Positions 24,846-56,989 of a stretch of 64,000 nucleotides of DNA are shown piece by piece. Each line of letters begins with the position of its first letter. Position 1 is the stretch's first letter. This DNA comes from Phytoseiulus persimilis. Lineage: Eukaryota; Arthropoda; Arachnida; Mesostigmata; Phytoseiidae. The translations under genes were made by a program, and so were the position numbers. A model generated the notes under the pieces. The model was given only the letters and a program-made list of their open reading frames with translations, was not told the origin of the DNA and searched no databases. The stretch is from contig CM075103.1 of the NCBI GenBank assembly GCA_037576195.1, positions 6,820,001 through 6,884,000 of the forward strand, in the 5' to 3' direction.

Positions 24846-24846
24846 A

Positions 24847-25120
24847 CAGGGTGGCCAGTTTTAGTCGGGAATTTTCGAGCCCTTACTTGTTTTGTCCATA
24901 ACTCTCCCAGTATTTTGAATTTCCTTCGAAAATCAAGAAGTGATAGAGGATATCGGGTTGGTCATTTTCTGCAAAATTTGAATGGATATGATGAGAATTT
25001 CGGGTCAGAAAATGGTTTTGAAAATGACCCATTTCCGTCGATGTCTCTCTGAAAGTTATCGTGAAAACGTAAATATTCAGCCGGCCGGGCTCGTACGGGC
25101 CGCGTTGGACGCGCGAAAGG
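24847..25120 (+). repeat. Left terminal inverted repeat
   Basis: This is about 274 bp and matches 33,836-34,070 in inverted orientation. Landmarks inward are CAGGGTGGCCAG, GGGAATTTTCGAG, a CATAACT..C stretch, GGTTTTGAAAATGACCC (25,014-25,030) and CGCGTTGGACGCGCGAAAGG (25,101-25,120). An internal indel accounts for the length difference between the arms. The arms are clearly diverged, so the insertion is not recent. Confidence 0.8.
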
Positions 25121-25125
25121 CATTC

Positions 25126-25423
25126 TCCTCGGAAAATGGCAAGCGATCGTATCAAAAATTCCGATGGTGTCAAGGGTGATTTTATCCAAAATTGAATGAG
25201 GGTGATTTCCGGTGAAAATCAGTAAGCGCCAGATCGGCCTCGCAGCTCAATATGCAGATGATTCACCTCTTTCTGAGTAATTTCCACCCGACGAGTTACC
25301 TTCGATTCCGCTCCGTTGAGGAGTTCCGAGAGAAAATGCGAGGGAAAGCGAAGAGAACGAAATCAGCCAACGGGCAGGCCCTTGGAGAAAGGGTAGATAC
25401 GACCACTTGCCATTTTCCGAGGA
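25126..25423. repeat. Nested 28-bp inverted repeat inside the left flank
   Basis: TCCTCGGAAAATGGCAAG at 25,126-25,143, extending to 25,153, is the reverse complement of 25,396-25,423. The first 18 positions match perfectly and a few mismatches fall in the remaining 10. The arms enclose about 240 bp. This makes a second, smaller palindromic unit between the terminal repeat and the satellite. The enclosed sequence carries two GGGTGATTT words (about 25,170 and 25,195) that resemble the start of the satellite unit. Confidence 0.75.
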
Positions 25424-25498
25424 TCCTTATCCTTACGATAAATAATCGGCTTAGTCTGTCCGTTTGTCAGTTCGTCCGCACTTTTTCTGGAAGACACG

Positions 25499-28400
25499 AA
25501 GGTGATTCCGGGACCCATCTGAACATACTTCCCAAAACGTGGAGGGGTAATTTCGGAACCGATCTGACCATTACTTTTCAAGTCTGGAGGAGTGATTTCG
25601 GGACCAATCTCAGCATTACTTTCCAAGTCTGGGGGGGTGATTCCGGGACCAATCTGACCGTAAATTTTCAAGTTTGGAGGAGTGATTCCGAGACCAATCT
25701 GAGCATTACTTTCCAACTCTGGAGGGGTGATTCCGAGACCAATCTGAGCAATACTTCCCAACTCTGGAGGGGTGATTCCGATACCAGTCTGGCCATTACT
25801 TTCCAACTCTGGAGGGGTGATTTCGGGACCAATCTCAGCATTACTTTCCAAGTCTGGGGGGTGATTCCGAGACCAATCTGATCATAACTCTCCAACTCTG
25901 GAGGGGTGATTCCGGAACCAATCTGAGCATTACTTTCCAACTCTGGAGGGGTGATTCCGGGACCAATCTGACCATAACTTTTCAAGTCTGGGGGGGTGAT
26001 TCCGAGACCGATCTGAGCATTACTTTCCAACTCTGGAGGGGTGATTCCGGAACCAGTCTGGCCATTACTTTCCAACTCTGGAGGGGTGATTTCGGGACCA
26101 ATCTCACCATAACTCTCCAACTCTCTGTTTTCGGCTGAACCTCTCAGCCAGCCCTCAGGAGTGTCCCGGATTCACCAACTCTCCAACTCTGGAGGGGTGA
26201 TTCCGGAACCAATCTGACCATTACTTCCCAACTCTGGAGGGGTGATTCCGGAACCAATCTGAGCATTACTTTCCAACTCTGGAGGGGTGATTCCGAAACC
26301 CATCTGAGCATTACTTCTCAAGTCTGGAGGAGTGATTCCGAGACCAATCTGAGCATTACTTTCCAACCTTGGAGGGGTGATTCCGGTACCAGTCTGGCCA
26401 TTACTTTCCAACTCTGGAGGGGTGATTTCGGGACCAATCTCACCATAACTCTCCAACTCTGGAGGGGTGATTCCGAGACCAATCTGATCATAACTCTCCA
26501 ACTCTGGAGGGGTGATTCCGGAACCAATCTGAGCATTACTTTCCAACTCTGGAGGGGTGATTCCGGGACCAATCTGACCATAACTTTTCAAGTCTGGGGG
26601 GGGTGATTCCGAGACCAATCTGAGCATAACTCTCCAACTCTTGAGGGGTTATTCCGGAACCAATCTGACCATTACTTCGCAACTCTGGAGGGGTGATTCC
26701 GGGACCAATCTGAGCATTACTTTCCAAGTCTGGGGGGGGGGGGGGGGGGGGGGGGGGTTTATCCGAGACCAATCTGACCATAACTCTCCAACTCTGGAGG
26801 GGTGATTCCGGAACCAATCTGACCATTACTTCCCAACTCTGGAGGGGTGATTCCGGGACCAATCTGACCATAACTTTTCAAGTCTGGGGGGGGGGGGGGT
26901 GATTCCGGGACCACTCTGACCATAACTCTCCAACTCTGGAGGGGTGATTCCGGAACCAATCTGAGCATTACTTTCCAACTCTGGAGGGGTGCTTTCGGGA
27001 CCAATCTCAGCATTACTTTCCAAGTCTGGGGGGGTGATTCCGAGACCAATCTGATCATAATTCTCCAACTCTGGAGGGGTGATTCCGGAACCAATCTGAG
27101 CATTACTTTCCAACTCTGGAGGGGTGATTCCGGGACCAATCTGACCATAACTTTTCAAGTCTGGAGGAGTGATTCCGAGACCAATCTGAGCATTACTTTC
27201 CAACTCTGGAGGGGTGATTCCGGTACCAGTCTGGCCATTACTTTCCAACTCTGGAGGGGTGATTTCGGGACCAATCTCAGCATTACTTTCCAAGTCTGGG
27301 GGGGTGATTCCGAGACCAATCTGACCATAACTCTCCAACTCTGGAGGGGTGATTCCGGAACCAATCTGAGCATTACTTCCCAACTCTGGAGGGTTGATTC
27401 CGGGACCAATCTGACCATAAATTTTCAAGTTTGGAGGAGTGATTCCGAGACCAATCTGAGCATTACTTTCCAGCTCTGGAGGGGTGATTCCGGTACCAGT
27501 CTGGCCATTACTTTCCAACTCTGGAGGGGTGATTTCGGGACCAATCTCAGCATTACTTTCCAAGTCTGGGGGGGGGGGGGTGATTCCGAGACCAATCTGA
27601 TCATTACTCTCCAACTCTGGAGGGGTGATTCCGGAACCAATCTGAGCATTACTTTCCAACTCTGGAGGGGTGATTCCGGGACCAATCTGACCATAACTTT
27701 TCAAGTCTGGAGGAGTGATTCCGAGACCAATCTGAGCATTACTTTCCAACTCTGGAGCGGTGATTCCGAGACCAATCTGAGCATTACTTCCCAACTCTGG
27801 AGGGGTGATTCCGATACCAGTCTGGCCATTACTTTCCAACTCTGGAGGGGTGATTCCGATACCAGTCTGGCCATTACTTTCCAACTCTGGAGGGGTGATT
27901 CCGATACCAATCTCAGCATTACTTTCCAAGTCTGGGGGGGGGGGGTGATTCCGAGACCAATCTGACCATAAATTTTCAAGTTTGGAGGAGTGATTCCGAG
28001 ACCAATCTGAGCATTACTTTCCAACTCTGGAGGGGTGATTCCGAGACCAATCTGAGCATTACTTCCCAACTCTGGAGGGGTGATTCCGATACCAGTCTGG
28101 CCATTACTTTCCAACTCTGGAGGGGTGATTTCGGGACCAATCTCAGCATTACTTTCCAAGTCTGGGGGGGGGGGTGATTCCGAGACCAATCTGACCATAA
28201 ATTTTCAAGTTTGGAGGAGTGATTCCGAGACCAATCTGAGCATTACTTTCCAACTCTGGAGGGGTGATTCCGAGACCAATCTGAGCATTACTTCCCAACT
28301 CTGGAGGGGTGATTCCGATACCAGTCTGGCCATTACTTTCCAACTCTGGAGGGGTGATTCCGATACCAGTCTGGCCATTACTTTCCAACTCGGAGGGGTG

Positions 28401-31400
28401 ATTCCGATACCAGTCTGGCCATTACTTTCCAACTCTGGAGGGGTGATTTCGGGACCAATCTCAGCATTAATTTCCAAGTCTGGGGGGGGGGGTGATTCCG
28501 AGACCAATCTGACCATAAATTTTCAAGTTTTGGAGGGTGATTCCGAGACCAATCTGAGCATTACTTTCCAACTCTGGAGGGGTGATTCCGAGACCAATCT
28601 GAGCATTACTTCCCAACTCTGGAGGGGTGATTCCGATACCAGTCTGGCCATTACTTTCCAACTCTGGAGGAGTGATTTCGGGACCAATCTCAGCATTACT
28701 TTCCAAGTCTGGGGGGGGGGGTGATTCCGAGACCAATCTGACCATAAATTTTCAAGTTTGGAGGAGTGATTCCGAGACCAATCTGAGCATTACTTTCCAA
28801 CTCTGGAGGGGTGATTCCGATACCAGTCTGGCCATTACTTTCCAACTCTGGAGGGGTGATTCCGGAACCAATCTGAGCATTACTTTCCAACTCTGGAGGG
28901 GTGATTCCGGAACCAATCTGAGCATTACTTTCCAACTCTGGAGGGGTGATTCCGATACCAGTCTGGCCATTACTTTCCAACTCTGGAGGGGTGATTTCGG
29001 GACCAATCTCAGCATTACTTTCCAAGTCTGGGGGGGGGGGGGGGGGGGGATTTCGGGACCAATCTCACCATAACTCTCCAACTCTGGAGGGGTGATTCCG
29101 AGACCAATCTGATCATAACTCTCCAACTCTGGAGGGGTGATTCCGGAACCAATCTGAGCATTACTTTCCAACTCTGGAGGGGTGATTCCGGGACCAATCT
29201 GACCATAACTTTTCAAGTCTGGGGGGGTGATTCCGAGACCAATCTGAGCATAACTCTCCAACTCTGGAGGGGTTATTCCGGAACCAATCTGACCATTACT
29301 TCCCAACTCTGGAGGGGTGATTTCGGGACCAATCTCAGCATTACTTTCCAAGTCTGGGGGGGTGATTCCGAGACCAATCTGACCATAACTCTCCAACTCT
29401 GGAGGGGTGATTCCGGAACCAATCTGAGCATTACTTCCCAACTCTGGAGGGGTGATTCCGGGACCAATCTGACCGTAAATTTTTTCAAGTTTGGAGGAGT
29501 GATTTCGAGACCAATCTGAGCATTACTTTCCAACTCTGGAGGGGTGATTCCGGTACCAGTCTGGCCATTACTTTCCAACTCTGGAGGGGTGATTTCGGGA
29601 TCAATCTCAGCATTACTTTCCAAGTCTGGGGGGGTGATTCCGAGACCAATCTCACCATAACTCTCCAACTCTGGAGGGGTGACTCCGGAACCAATCTGAG
29701 CATTACTTTCCAACTCTGGAGGGGTGATTCCGAGACCAATCTCACCATTACTTCCCAACTCTGGAGGGGTGATTCCGGGGTCAATCTGAGCATTACTTCC
29801 CAGCTCTGGAGGGGTGATTCCGGGACCAATCTGACCATAAATTTTCAAGTTTGGAGGGGTGATTCCGAGACCAATCTGAGCATTACTTTCCAACTCTGGA
29901 GGGGTGATTCCGGGGTACCAGTCTGGCCATTACTTTCCAACTCTGGAGGGGTGATTTCGGGATCAATCTCAGCATTACTTTCCAAGTCTGGGGGGGGGGG
30001 GGTGATTCCGAGACCAATCTCACCATAACTCTCCAACTCTGGGGGGTGACTCCGGAACCAATCTGAGCATACTTTTTCCAACTCTGGAGGGGTGATTCCG
30101 AGACCAATCTCACCATTACTTCCCAACTCTGGAGGGGTGATTCCGGGGTCAATCTGAGCATTACTTCCCAACTCTGGAGGGGTGATTCCGAGACCAATCT
30201 GACCATTACTTCCCAACTCTGGAGGGGTGATTCCGGGGTCAATCTGAGCATTACTTCCCAACTCTGGAGGGGTGATTCCGAGACCAATCTGAGCATTACT
30301 TTCCAACTCTGGAGGGGTGATTCCGAGACCAATCTGAGCATTACTTTCCAACTCTGGAGGGGTGATTCCGAGACCAATCTCACCATTACTTCCCAACTCT
30401 GGAGGGGTGATTCCGAGACCAATCTCACCATTACTTTCCAACTCTGGAGGGGTGATTCCGAGACCAATCTGAGCATTACTTTCCAACTCTGGAGGGGTGA
30501 TTCCGACCAATCTCACCATTACTTCCCAACTCTGGAGGGGTGATTCCGGGGTCAATCTGAGCATTAATTCCCAACTCTGGAGGGGTGATTCCGAGACCAA
30601 TCTCACCATTACTTCCCAACTCTGGTGGGTTGATTCCGGGGTCAATCTGAGCATTACTTCCCAACTCTGGAGGGGTGATTCCGAGACCAATCTGAGCATT
30701 ACTTTCCAACTCTGGAGGGGTGATTCCGAGACCAATCTCACCATTACTTCCCAACTCTGGAGGGGTGATGCCGGGGTCAATCTGAGCATTACTTCCCAAC
30801 TCTGGAGGGGTGATTCCGAGACCAATCTGACCATTACTTCCCAACTCTGGAGGAGTGATTCCAGGGTCAATCTGAGCATTACTTCCCAACTCTGGAGGGG
30901 TGATTCCGAGACCAATCTGACCATAACTTCCCAACTCTGGAGGGGTGATTCCGAGACCAATCTGAGCATTACTTTCCAACTCTGATGGGTTGATTCCGGG
31001 GTCAATCTGAGCATTACTTCCGAACTCTGGAGGGGTGATTCCGAGACCAATCTCACCATTACTTTCCAACTCTGGAGGGGTGATTCCGAGACCAATCTCA
31101 CCATTACTTCCCAACTCTGGAGGGGTGATTCCGAGACCAATCTGAGCATTACTTCCCAACTCTGGAGGGGTGATTCCGAGACCAATCTGAGCATTACTTT
31201 CCAACTCTGGAGGGGTGATTCCGAGACCAATCTGAGCATTACTTTCCAACTCTGGAGGGGTGATTCCGAGACCAATCTGAGCATTACTTTCCAACTCTGG
31301 AGGGGTGATTCCGAGACCAATCTCACTATTACTTCCCAACTCTGGAGGGGTGATTCCGGGGTCAATCTGAGCATTACTTCCCAACTCTGGAGGGGTGATT

Positions 31401-33660
31401 CCGGGGTCAATCTGAGCATTACTTCCCAACTCTGGAGGGGTGATTCCGAGACCAATCTGACCATTACTTCCAACTCTGGGGGGGTGATTCCGGGGTCAAT
31501 CTGAGCATTACTTTCCAACTCTGGAGGGGTGATTCCGAGACCAATCTGAGCATTACTTTCCAACTCTGGAGGGGTGATTCCGAGACCAATCTGAGCATTT
31601 CTTCCCAACTCTGAAGGGGGATTCCGAGACCAATCTCACCATTACTTCCCAACTCTGGAGGGGTGATTCCGGGGTCAATCTGAGCATTACTTCCCAACTC
31701 TGGAGGGGTGATTCCGGGGTCAATCTGAGCATTACTTTCCAACTCTGGAGGGGTGATTCCGGGGTCAATCTGAGCATTACTTCCAAACTCTGGAGGGGTG
31801 ATTCCGAGACCAATCTGAGCATTACTTCCCAACTCTGGAGGGGTGATTCCGAGACCAATCTCACCATTACTTCCCAACTCTGGAGGGGTGATTCCGGGGC
31901 CAATCTGACCATTACTTCCCAACTCTGGAGGGGTGATTCCGAGACCAATCTGACCATTACTTCCCAACTCTGGGGGGTGATTCCGGGGTCAATCTGAGCA
32001 TTACTTCCCAACTCTGAGGGGTGATTCCGAGACCAATCTGAGCATTACTTTCCAGCTCTGGAGGGGTGATTCCGAGACCAATCTGACCATTACTTTCCAA
32101 CTCTGGAGGGGTGATTCCGGGGTCAATCTGAGCATTACTTCCCAACTCTGGAGGGGTGATTCCGAGACCAATCTCACCATTACTTTCCAACTCTGGAGGG
32201 GTGATTCCGAGATCAATCTGAGCATTACTTTCCAACTCTGGAGGGGTGATTCCGAGACCAATCTCACCATTACTTCCGAACTCTGGAGGGGTGATTCCGG
32301 GGTCAATCTGAGCATTACTCCCAACTCTGGAGGGGTGATTCCGAGACCAATCTCACCATTACTTCCCAACTCTTGAGGGGTGATTCCGGGACCAATCTGA
32401 GCATTACTTCCCAACTCTGGAGGGGTGATTCCGGGGTCAATCTGAGCATTACTTCCCAACTCTGGAGGGGTGATTCCGGGGTCAATCTGAGCATTACTCC
32501 CCAACTCTGGAGGGGTGATTCCGAGACCAATCTCACCATTACTTCCCAACTCTGGAGGGGTGATTCCGGGGTCAATCTGAGCATTACTTCCAACTCTGGA
32601 GGGGTGATTCCGAGACCAATCTCACCATTACTTTCCAACTCTGGAGGGGTGATTCCGAGACCAATCTGAGCATTACTTCCCAACTCTGGAGGGGTGATTC
32701 CGAGACCAATCTGAGCATTACTCCCCAACTCTGGAGGGGTGATTCCGAGACCAATCTGAGCATTACTCCCCAACTCTGGAGGGGTGATTCCGAGACCAAT
32801 CTGACCATTACTTCCCAACTCTGGAGGGGTGATTCCGAGACCAATCTCACCATTACTTCCCAACTCTGGAGGGTGATTCCGAGACCAATCTCACCATTAC
32901 TTTCCAACTCTGGAGGGGTGATTCCGAGACCAATCTGAGCATTACTTTCCAACTCTGGAGGGGTGATTCCGAGACCAATCTCACCATTACTTCCCAACTC
33001 TGGAGGGGTGATTCCGGGACCAATCTGAGCATTACTTCCCAACTCTGGAGGGGTGATTCCGCGACCAATCTGAGCATTACTTTCCAACTCTGGAGGGGTG
33101 ATTCCGGGACCAATCTGAGCATTACTCCCCAACTCTGGAGGGGTGATTCCGGGACCAATCTGAGCATTACTTTCCAACTCTGGAGGGGTGATTCCGAGAC
33201 CAATCTCACCATTACTTCCCAACTCTGGAGGGGTGATTCCGAGACCAATCTGAGCATTACTTCCCAACTCTGGAGGGGTGATTCCGAGACCAATCTCACC
33301 ATTCCTCCCCAACTCTGGAGGGGTGATTCCGAGACCAATCTGAGCATTACTTCCCAACTCTGGAGGGGTGATTCCGGGACCAATCTGAGCATTACTTTCC
33401 AACTCTGGAGGGGTGATTCCGAGACCAATCTCACCATTACTTCCCAACTCTGGAGGGGTGATTCCGGGACCAATCTGAGCATTACTTTCCAACTCTGGAG
33501 GGCTGATTCCGGGACCAATCTGACCATTACTTTCCAACTCTGGAGAGGTGATTCCGAGACCAATCTCACCATACTTTTCCAAGTCTGGAGAAGTGATTTC
33601 GAGACCAATCTGACCATACTTCTCCGAATCTGGAGGAACGATCACGAGACCAATTCAACC
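25499..33660. repeat. 45-bp minisatellite array, about 180 units
   Basis: The unit is 45 bp with core GGGTGATTCCGAGACCAA. On the minus strand it translates as the 15-residue repeat ESNAQIGLGITPPEL. Because 45 is a multiple of 3 and the unit lacks stops, open frames up to 587 codons arise automatically on both strands. Variable positions are mostly non-synonymous second-codon changes (E/G, A/G, L/P, G/D), which argues against coding constraint. From 25.5 to about 29.9 kb, variants are arranged in a six-unit (270-bp) higher-order repeat. From about 29.9 to 33.6 kb, simpler two-unit (90-bp) alternation dominates. Units of the AAGTCTGG type carry G runs of 7 to 26. A non-repeat interruption of about 60 bp lies at 26,122-26,184. 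Confidence 0.95.
26732..26757 (+). repeat. 26-G homopolymer within the satellite
   Basis: This is the longest of many G runs in the array. Each sits at the same place in the unit, where AAGTCTGG is followed by GTGATT; other units have 7-19 G at that site. The spread of lengths suggests slippage at a homologous site during array growth. It may form a G-quadruplex. Confidence 0.9.
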
Positions 33661-33750
33661 ATACTTTCCAAAACCATGATGCTGATTCAGTGAAGGAAGT
33701 GAAAAGTGCTCCGATGCCACGGAACGCCACGAGGAAACCCGCGGTGTCCC

Positions 33751-33783
33751 GCCGCGCACAGCGCGGCCGACTCCAGTCGGCCG
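33751..33783. repeat. GC-rich hairpin cluster at the array's right edge
   Basis: CGGCCGACT at 33,764-33,772 pairs perfectly with AGTCGGCCG at 33,775-33,783 across a 2-base loop. An overlapping alternative hairpin pairs GCCGCG (33,751-33,756) with CGCGGC (33,762-33,767). The two stems share bases, so they are mutually exclusive. They lie between the last satellite unit and the right terminal repeat. Confidence 0.8.
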
Positions 33784-33835
33784 AAGGCCGGCTGGTTTGA
33801 GATAACTTCGATCCGGTTTCGGGCGAATGACCCGT

Positions 33836-34070
33836 TCCCTTTTGCGCGTCCAACGCGACCCCTACAATCCCGATCGGACGAATATTGGGGTCATTTTCAA
33901 AACCGTTTTCCCGAATTTTCATCATATCGATTCGAGTTTCGCAAAAAATGACCGCCCCCCGATATCCTCTATCGATCACTATTTGCTTTTCGAGAAAATT
34001 CCTGAACTCAGAAAGTTATGACCAAAACAAGATTGGACTCGAAAATTCCCGGCCAAAACTGGCCGCCCCG
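33836..34070 (-). repeat. Right terminal inverted repeat
   Basis: About 235 bp, the inverted partner of 24,847-25,120. Read on the minus strand it starts CGGGGCGGCCAGTTTT, then GGGAATTTTCGAG, and reaches GTTTTGAAAATGACCCC and CGCGTTGGACGCGC near 33,840. The outer tip differs from the left by C/T and A/G changes. Confidence 0.8.
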
Positions 34071-34076
34071 TGTAGT

Positions 34077-43255: not shown

Positions 43256-43442
43256 TTACGTATGTGAGGTTATTTACGTAAAATTACACTCGAAATTACG
43301 TAAACGCTGGGTGACGCATACTACCTGACACGTTGTGGCGCGTGTACCGTAACGTCACGTGACGTTTTGCGGGTAGCGTACGTGATGTTTTTCTGATAGC
43401 AGGTCACCCTACACGTTGAGGCGCATGACACGTTCTATATAA
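43255..43442 (+). promoter_or_regulatory. Promoter-like cluster of ACGT palindromes with a TATA box
   Basis: Two perfect TTACGTAA sites (43,274-43,281 and 43,296-43,303) are the optimal palindrome for PAR/C-EBP/E4BP4-type bZIP factors (Vrille and Pdp1 in insects). A perfect 16-bp palindrome, AACGTCACGTGACGTT (43,351-43,366), combines a CACGTG E-box with flanking TGACG half-sites. A 17-bp near-repeat ACACGTTG[T/A]GGCGC[G/A]TG occurs at 43,328 and 43,411. TATATAA lies at 43,436-43,442. The clustering and order (sites, then TATA) suggest a real promoter. If so, transcription would begin near 43,465. Site identities come from the sequence; the factor names are established binding preferences; function is inferred. 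Confidence 0.45.
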
Positions 43443-43454
43443 TGTCGATTTCAG

Positions 43455-43469
43455 GTTACGTTACGTTAC
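43455..43469 (+). repeat. (GTTAC)3 pentanucleotide repeat
   Basis: Three perfect GTTAC units directly follow the TATA box, in the position of a possible initiator or 5' leader. Confidence 0.9.
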
Positions 43470-43474
43470 GCTCC

Positions 43475-43699
43475 ATGTTAACTTTCCCACTACGCTTCGT
43501 TATCTTCACACTACGCTTCGTGATTCTCACATTGCGCTTCGTAATTTGCGCATACGCGACGTTCAGTCAAAACTCTGAACTCGAAGTACTCCCAGGATTG
43601 CTCCAGTCTGCGCTCATCTACGCCCATCGCGAGGCTGAACATTTTCAGGCGGGCGCTAGCTCTCCGGTTCATTGCGGAACTGCCTCATTGCAAAACTGA
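43475..43699 (+). CDS. Candidate small protein with 7-residue hydrophobic repeats
   Basis: An ATG at 43,475 opens a 74-codon frame; an in-frame ATG at 43,442 overlaps the TATA box and is a less likely start. Residues about 5-25 are three copies of a 7-residue repeat of the TLRFVIL type, encoded by the 21-bp tandem repeat at 43,488-43,550. Together they make a hydrophobic, Arg-punctuated N-terminus that could act as a membrane or signal-anchor segment. The rest is hydrophilic (around E-L-E-V-L-P-G-L-L-Q-S) and ends at a stop after 43,696. It lies directly downstream of a promoter-like cluster. No homologue comes to mind. The frame is short, so coding status is uncertain. Confidence 0.3.
   Translation: MLTFPLRFVIFTLRFVILTLRFVICAYATFSQNSELEVLPGLLQSALIYAHREAEHFQAGASSPVHCGTASLQN
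43488..43550 (+). repeat. 21-bp tandem repeat, 3 units
   Basis: Units begin CACTACGCTTCGT at 43,488 and 43,509, and CATTGCGCTTCGT at 43,530. The period is exactly 21, which keeps the reading frame. Confidence 0.9.
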
Positions 43700-56338: not shown

Positions 56339-56989
56339 TCAGTCCTGAGCGAACTTGGCGCGTTGGGCGGGTGCTAGGTCCAGTTTGAAGACCCGTTCTG
56401 AAACGCCGAAGTGCCTTCCACTGCGGAGTGGCGCGAAGTGCCTTACACTGCAGAGTAGCGCGAAGTGCCTTACACAGCAGAGTAGCGCGAAGGCCTCCGA
56501 TCCATCACACAAATATGGGGTAGAGTAAGTTTTCTTTTCTTGCTCCAACAAAAACCCGAGGCGTCTAGCCGGTGTGAGTCCCGCCCCAAACGAACACGAG
56601 CTGCAGATCCGGTCGCTGCTGAACTTCGTGTTACGGAGTGAGGATTTGTCACGCCGAATCCTTTCGTCCTCACGATTCCAGGCTTGCTATGTCGTGGATA
56701 CTGTCTCATCAGTGAACAGGACTCTCCCCCAAGCAGAGGCTGCGGCGCGCCAGATGAGCTGAAGGCATCTCTGTGAGACTGCACGCCTTTTTCTACGGCC
56801 TGGGAGAAGGCCTCTTCTCCCATTGACGCGTTGATTCGCGATGCAGGCCCGGGAGGTTTTCACTGTAGTATTTTCGACGGTGCTCGGAATCCTCATGGTG
56901 CGTTTTCTTCCTCTTCCTGCTCGATCGCGCCCATGGCCAAGCTCATGGAAGCCCCCTAGGGGCTTTCGAAACAGTTGATTTCGGCACAC
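56339..56989 (-). pseudogene. Decayed Tc1/mariner transposase with one in-frame TAG
   Basis: One minus-strand frame is open for 217 codons except for a single TAG at 56,687-56,689. Just before it the translation reads SAWGRVLFTDETVSTT. This matches the transposase signature W-x-x-V-L-F-[ST]-D-E that carries the first catalytic Asp (D near 56,710). After the TAG, S-S-D-R-I-C-S-S-x-S-F-G-A-G fits the family's S-G-R-x-S-x-x-V-W-G-x-x-S region with a one-residue shift. The catalytic Asp survives; the stop and the repeat-expanded C-terminal part (27-bp repeats at 56,404-56,484) show it is not functional. It was recognised by motif, not by search, and the terminal inverted repeats were not located. 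Confidence 0.5.
56404..56492 (-). repeat. 27-bp tandem repeat, 3.3 units
   Basis: Units start CGCCGAAGTGCCTT (56,404), then GCGCGAAGTGCCTT (56,431) and again at 56,458, followed by a partial unit. The period 27 keeps the frame, giving the 9-residue repeat ALLCSVRHF on the minus strand, in phase with the transposase relic. This is a local expansion inside a dead element. Confidence 0.9.

Follow-up and report, generated by a model that had tools for sequence, protein, structure and literature searches.

A satellite-bearing non-autonomous Helitron nested in a MITE of Phytoseiulus persimilis

Results

Structure of the locus

The window, i.e. the whole stretch of DNA that was analysed, comprises 64,000 nucleotides of contig CM075103.1 of Phytoseiulus persimilis. 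The locus lies between positions 24,847 and 34,070 of the window, with all elements on the forward strand. It begins with a left terminal inverted repeat (24,847-25,120), which starts CAGGGTGGCCAGTTTT and is preceded by TA, and continues with a core (25,121-25,423) bounded by a 28-bp inverted repeat (25,126-25,153 and 25,396-25,423). The right terminal inverted repeat, which follows directly after the core in other copies, is found here at 33,796-34,070. The 8,372 bp in between (25,424-33,795) consist of a 5' end (25,424-25,500), a central array of 45-bp units (25,501-33,671) and a 3' end (33,655-33,795), and are described below as a nested, non-autonomous Helitron that entered at A^T without duplicating its target; the right arm resumes directly after it.

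The pairing of the inverted arms pointed out in an earlier note on this DNA is real. When the left arm was aligned to the reverse complement of the right arm, the best local alignment had a score of 169, with 159 identities, 31 mismatches and 16 gaps, which is far above chance, the highest score among 200 mononucleotide shuffles of the arms being 28. A global alignment of the arms as delimited in that note gave 189 identities, 38 mismatches and 55 gap positions, the last mostly because about 40 bp of the left arm are missing from the right arm.

The arms form the two ends of a MITE, about 0.9 kb long, that is repeated in the genome. In the assembly (181 Mb, 127 contigs) the left arm has at least 43 matching places, with 40 out of 412 candidates scored, and 34 loci were fetched around left-arm matches. 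Many of these contain a compact element of arm, core of approximately 300 bp and arm, mostly 0.84-1.0 kb in length and in some cases shorter. The MITE ends begin CAGGGTGGC, and TA adjoins 48 of the 53 ends listed (counted by hand, with a false match within the array set aside). TA is missing at both ends in L017, at one end in L021 and in L025, and at the right end in the window, where TG stands in place of the usual TA. By the TA mark the host MITE appears to be of the TA type, Tc1/mariner-like.

The 45-bp array

The array contains approximately 181-182 units from position 25,501, partial ones counted, in agreement with the earlier description of a minisatellite of about 180 units placed wholly between the arms. 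The mean identity of the units to their consensus is 0.92, and the last, diverged units grade into the Helitron 3' end. At least 321 places in the assembly match the array. The earlier statement that no transposase is found inside is compatible with the Pfam scan, which covered 9 of the window's 26 ORFs that reach 160 codons, all 9 outside the array, and gave no match for any of them. A coding role for the array was considered and rejected, since open frames inside it are to be expected from a unit of 45 bp, or 15 codons; the 587-codon open frame that runs through the array on the reverse strand (29,845-31,608) is of this kind. At 26,732-26,757 the array contains 26 consecutive G, apparently an expanded form of the G run at a unit junction. 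Two small tandem repeats elsewhere in the window, at 56,407-56,496 (27 bp, 3.4 copies) and 43,357-43,542 (21-23 bp), have consensus units that look unlike the 45-bp unit.

A BLAST self-comparison of the window array gave no match. By direct count there are 11 repeated stretches of at least 270 bp within it, 96-97% identical and at offsets of 1-47 units, which may be taken as a sign of block duplication.

Helitron ends around the array

Just outside the array, at 25,424 and 33,795, there are two further element ends, which were absent from the earlier note. The sequences 25,424-25,500 and 33,655-33,795 recur elsewhere in the genome with sharp outer limits and unrelated sequence beyond them, the left limit of the recurring element being A|TCC and the right limit a hairpin followed by CTGG|T. 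The element thus begins 5'-TC and terminates in CTGG, with the T of the host next. The 3' end contains a subterminal hairpin (33,751-33,767) with a 7-bp stem, GCCGCGC/GCGCGGC, and a terminal hairpin (33,773-33,795) with a 10-bp stem in which the CTGG terminus is included. A TCCTTA hexamer that is extra in the window 5' end is found again, with at most one change, in L056, L057, L074, L076 and L077.

Host A precedes 21 of the 22 5' ends with distinct flanks, the exception being L072 (T), and host T follows 14 of the 16 3' ends with distinct flanks, the exceptions being L071, which has CTGT at its end, and one copy of the tandem in L073; three of the 5' flanks (in the L076 tandem) and two of the 3' flanks are themselves Helitron sequence in tandem copies. 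Helentrons and Helitron2 elements insert between T and T, which is not the pattern at these 5' ends. The fold of the 3' end has a z of -3.35, with none of 200 shuffles as stable, and the 3' hairpins form in 96.2% of the pair cells over 17 ends, compared with 18.8-46.2% when slid. Compensatory change in the hairpins is weak (two pairs), and the 3' structure therefore rests on kept pairing and fold energy. Judged by these sequence features, the recurring sequences that flank the array are Helitron ends. The proposal that a mobile element carries the satellite therefore holds in so far as there is a carrier; this carrier is a Helitron with its own ends and not the element that bears the arms. At L090 an inverted 5' tip is found straight after a 3' end.

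The empty site

With position 25,423 joined to 33,796, the flanks of the Helitron could be aligned across the insertion point, with no gap at that point, to the MITE at 29 of the 34 loci. The alignment covered nearly the whole core side (150 bp) in 22 of these and only about 20-50 bp of the core in the other 7; as the two ends of the MITE core form an inverted repeat, these short alignments may lie at its other junction. Joined-flank matches in L013, L028, L032, L040 and L041 did not span the site. Most empty copies have A^A at the site; A^T, the step needed for the insertion, is present in three (L012, L023 and L027), of which L012 and L023 are the two empty copies of highest identity. The insertion is precise, with MITE sequence neither lost nor duplicated, and is located at the junction of the MITE core and the right arm.

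Paired arms without 45-bp units do occur elsewhere. The earlier note would have read them as support for growth of the satellite between the arms; because the flanks align with no gap at the insertion point, they are empty sites and not an early stage of such growth. None of the 34 fetched arm-bearing loci has the satellite inside the MITE, which together with the Helitron's own ends goes against the satellite being cargo of the arm-bearing element or having grown inside it. In L025 and L037 the satellite is near the MITE and outside it.

The flanks (about 0.1-1.5 kb) of seven other complete Helitrons gave no match to the MITE arm or core. Among 53 further loci (L043-L095), arms or core matched only in L055 and L063, both of them the window itself, and in L065-L067, which are a single place on C1. 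At this place a 32-bp piece of the MITE core (94%) and a 67-bp piece of the inner arm (about 72%) are found approximately 0.1-0.25 kb beyond the Helitron 3' end, and another Helitron may have entered a different part of a decayed MITE there. The same place (C1:5978892-5982520) has three Helitron 3' ends, 1.3 and 2.2 kb apart, with identical downstream flank; the tandem duplication there consequently takes in flanking DNA.

Family size and range of array length

Searches of the whole genome with at most two mismatches gave 284 5' tips and 340 3' tips, with none for the reversed control patterns. An exact 3' tip on the same strand was found at most 12 kb downstream of 36 of the 81 exact 5' tips on C1 and C2, compared with 2 (upstream) and 1 (opposite strand) in the controls. 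The spacing of these 36 pairs is 0.5-11 kb, with a median of 2.6 kb. Eight distinct complete copies, L064 and L072 being one element and counted once, are 333, 521, 798, 916, 978, 1,275, 1,776 and 8,372 bp long and contain, in the same order, 5, 9, 14, 18, 18, 26, 35 and 182 units, partial ones counted.

Between loci, the unit next to the 5' end has an identity of 94%, measured over 21 pairs, of which one is the same element twice. By position, identity between loci is 0.94 for the first unit, 0.88 for the second and 0.81 for the third, and 0.89, 0.75 and 0.81 for the last three. Only the first unit appears clearly fixed between loci, counting by index being affected by shifts. The last diverged units are common to the window, L064 and L070, and others differ at the same index. 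Interior units have an identity of 0.855 within loci (355 pairs) and 0.861 between loci (2,734 pairs), and local homogenisation of single units was accordingly not found.

Among the matches listed, 15 of 30 array clusters have a Helitron end on the same strand within 10 kb, with both ends in 7, and one further cluster (L093) was tied to a Helitron end by fetching, giving a total of 16. For 14 of the 30 no Helitron end was seen; the tip lists consisted of exact matches only, and the matches listed reach part-way through C3. The unlinked clusters are in part a limit of the exact-match lists, yet they leave room for free arrays. At C1:3139568-3144786 the array continues through the fetched 3' side, and the 5' side contains an array in inverted orientation whose 3' end is diverged; at C3:38037267 the fetched 3' side is likewise still array.

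At L073 (C2:7668900-7671000) short Helitrons follow one another head to tail every 536 bp, the 3' CTGG being joined to an altered 5' tip, TAGTAAGGATAATCGGC, so that a tandem array of whole elements results. Two elements at C3:9744019-9759148 with an equal tip distance of 2,921 bp, 12.2 kb apart, are probably a segmental duplication.

A candidate Rep-helicase partner

The Pfam family Helitron_like_N has 101 matches in the genome, one of which, at C3:24450345, is in an open frame of 1,951 residues. The 1,313 residues read (L091) contain a Rep domain (PF14214) and a PIF1-like helicase domain (PF05970) and match Helraiser (PDB 7lcc) over residues 25-1302 with 1097 bits. An exact Helitron 3' tip is located 0.2 kb past the stop. 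Upstream of the frame, at L076 (C3:24444150-24445000), there are five tandem 5' ends, 103-128 bp apart; these tips are 5.6-6.1 kb upstream of the Rep domain in a rearranged locus of which 4.6 kb in between are unread. A 153-bp inverted repeat (L076 1-153 and L091 from 4161), which includes 17 bp of the 5' tip, brackets the locus. Given this repeat and the unread 4.6 kb, the Rep-helicase locus may be composite. These observations on the candidate partner support mobilisation of the satellite Helitron in trans. The tandem 5' ends at L076, together with the head-to-tail copies at L073, would be compatible with rolling-circle transposition.

Discussion

The locus almost certainly consists of two unrelated nested elements, an older MITE and a non-autonomous Helitron that owns the satellite. 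The MITE of roughly 0.9 kb, with its CAGGGTGGC inverted repeats, would have occupied the site first, and the Helitron would later have entered it at A^T at the junction of core and right arm. The Helitron in this reconstruction is made up of a 5' end of about 75 bp, the central 45-bp minisatellite and a 3' end of about 140 bp with hairpins and CTGG. The data demonstrate the nesting, the ends, the empty site, the end counts, the range of array length and a Rep-helicase locus with the same 3' tip; movement in trans, the way in which arrays change length and any current activity are inferred. A Helraiser-like Rep-helicase would move the Helitron in trans by rolling-circle transposition, as suggested by the family it belongs to, and, if the process is as in Helraiser, would involve a nick at the transposon end, unwinding, the hairpin as signal of the 3' end, circles and insertion into AT. 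Whole arrays would thereby be spread by transposition, and within the element whole blocks of units would be duplicated or lost, whether by unequal exchange, by slippage or when the rolling-circle intermediate is replicated. The Helitron thus moves with the satellite as its core, and the length of the satellite varies inside it. A bolder version, in which transposition itself makes the satellite because replication of the intermediate adds or removes 45-bp blocks at each jump, is speculative and perhaps one chance among several; if true, the range of 5-182 units stems from the transposition cycle and not from later recombination at a resident site.

The arms flank the array and paired arms without units exist, as they would if this were a foldback-like element whose internal 45-bp repeats had grown to a satellite between its own arms, for which Tetris is a published precedent (PMC4079207). 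Such an origin is extremely improbable. The sequences of about 75 and 140 bp on either side of the array are found at other loci as the ends of elements, the remaining seven complete Helitrons have no MITE match in their flanks, and the 34 fetched loci, from a search with 40 out of 412 candidate places for the arm scored, gave no MITE with satellite inside it. At the locus itself the precise insertion and the empty sites contradict it, and a foldback element with satellite cargo is thus rejected here on account of empty sites, satellite-free MITEs and MITE-free Helitron flanks. A wrong joining of arms and array in the assembly is hardly credible either: long arrays are hard to assemble and the unit number in the window is without visible read support, but both junctions reproduce the Helitron tips of other loci and the two halves of the MITE fit the empty copies ungapped, so that a misjoin was rejected and at most the unit number may be wrong.

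More weight, although still little, is given to an independent tandem repeat that was captured by Helitron ends or later invaded Helitrons, with the Helitron as an occasional carrier. The 14 of 30 array clusters without a Helitron end among the matches listed would fit this origin, as would the interior units, which are as alike between loci as within them, and the element-held, intermediate and standalone arrays described in oyster (PMC12628747). The absent ends are at least partly due to the exact-match tip lists, however, and the 94% identity of the first unit between loci fits one founding element that already had an array, which makes an independent origin improbable. The nested pair of MITE and satellite-owning Helitron is the preferred explanation.

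The clean nesting in a known order, MITE and then Helitron, reveals which of the two elements owns the satellite. Hundreds of ends, with 5-182 units between shared tips, form a natural series for the growth and spread of a Helitron satellite. The locus is also a warning that inverted arms around an array need not form one element with it. A search of titles and the starts of abstracts in open-licence literature, with the repeat letters outside the query, gave no description of this mite Helitron family.

Among known systems, inverted arms and satellite-like repeats are also found at one locus in Tetris of Drosophila virilis, but there the repeats are described as part of the arms (PMC4079207), whereas the mite array belongs to another element inserted between them. 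The precedent seen earlier in the foldback elements of Drosophila is consequently inapplicable, the array being owned by the Helitron. Helraiser, the Helibat element of bats, has the same 5'-TC, CTRR-3', hairpin near the 3' end and A|T target; its transposase is reported to nick the transposon end and its helicase to unwind, with a hairpin signalling the 3' end, circles being formed and insertion taking place into AT (PMC4778049). The candidate partner protein matches it over 1,278 residues (PDB 7lcc). The Helraiser hairpin is described as 11 nt from the end, with CTAG as terminus (PMC4778049), while in the mite element one hairpin includes the terminus, CTGG.

Direct precedents are elements that bear satellites themselves. 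The Cg_HINE elements of the Pacific oyster are non-autonomous Helentrons with central satellite-like repeats and resemble the mite element in having end sequences around a central tandem array and in being rolling-circle elements dispersed in the genome (PMC7492417). They are classed there as Helentrons, while the mite element, with 5'-TC, CTRR-3' and A^T, has the pattern of a classical Helitron, and species and unit differ. Helitrons with embedded satellite families are reported in Caenorhabditis elegans, where they likewise carry and spread short-unit satellites, the unit families described being other than the 45-bp unit of the mite (PMC4595182). According to a review, the central regions of Helitrons and Helentrons often contain satellite-like arrays, and in many tandem arrays of plants several 5' ends accompany one 3' end (PMC12628747); at L076, too, 5' ends stand in tandem. 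The satellite Helitron family of the mite is a further case of the known satellite-bearing Helitrons and Helentrons, here nested in a MITE.
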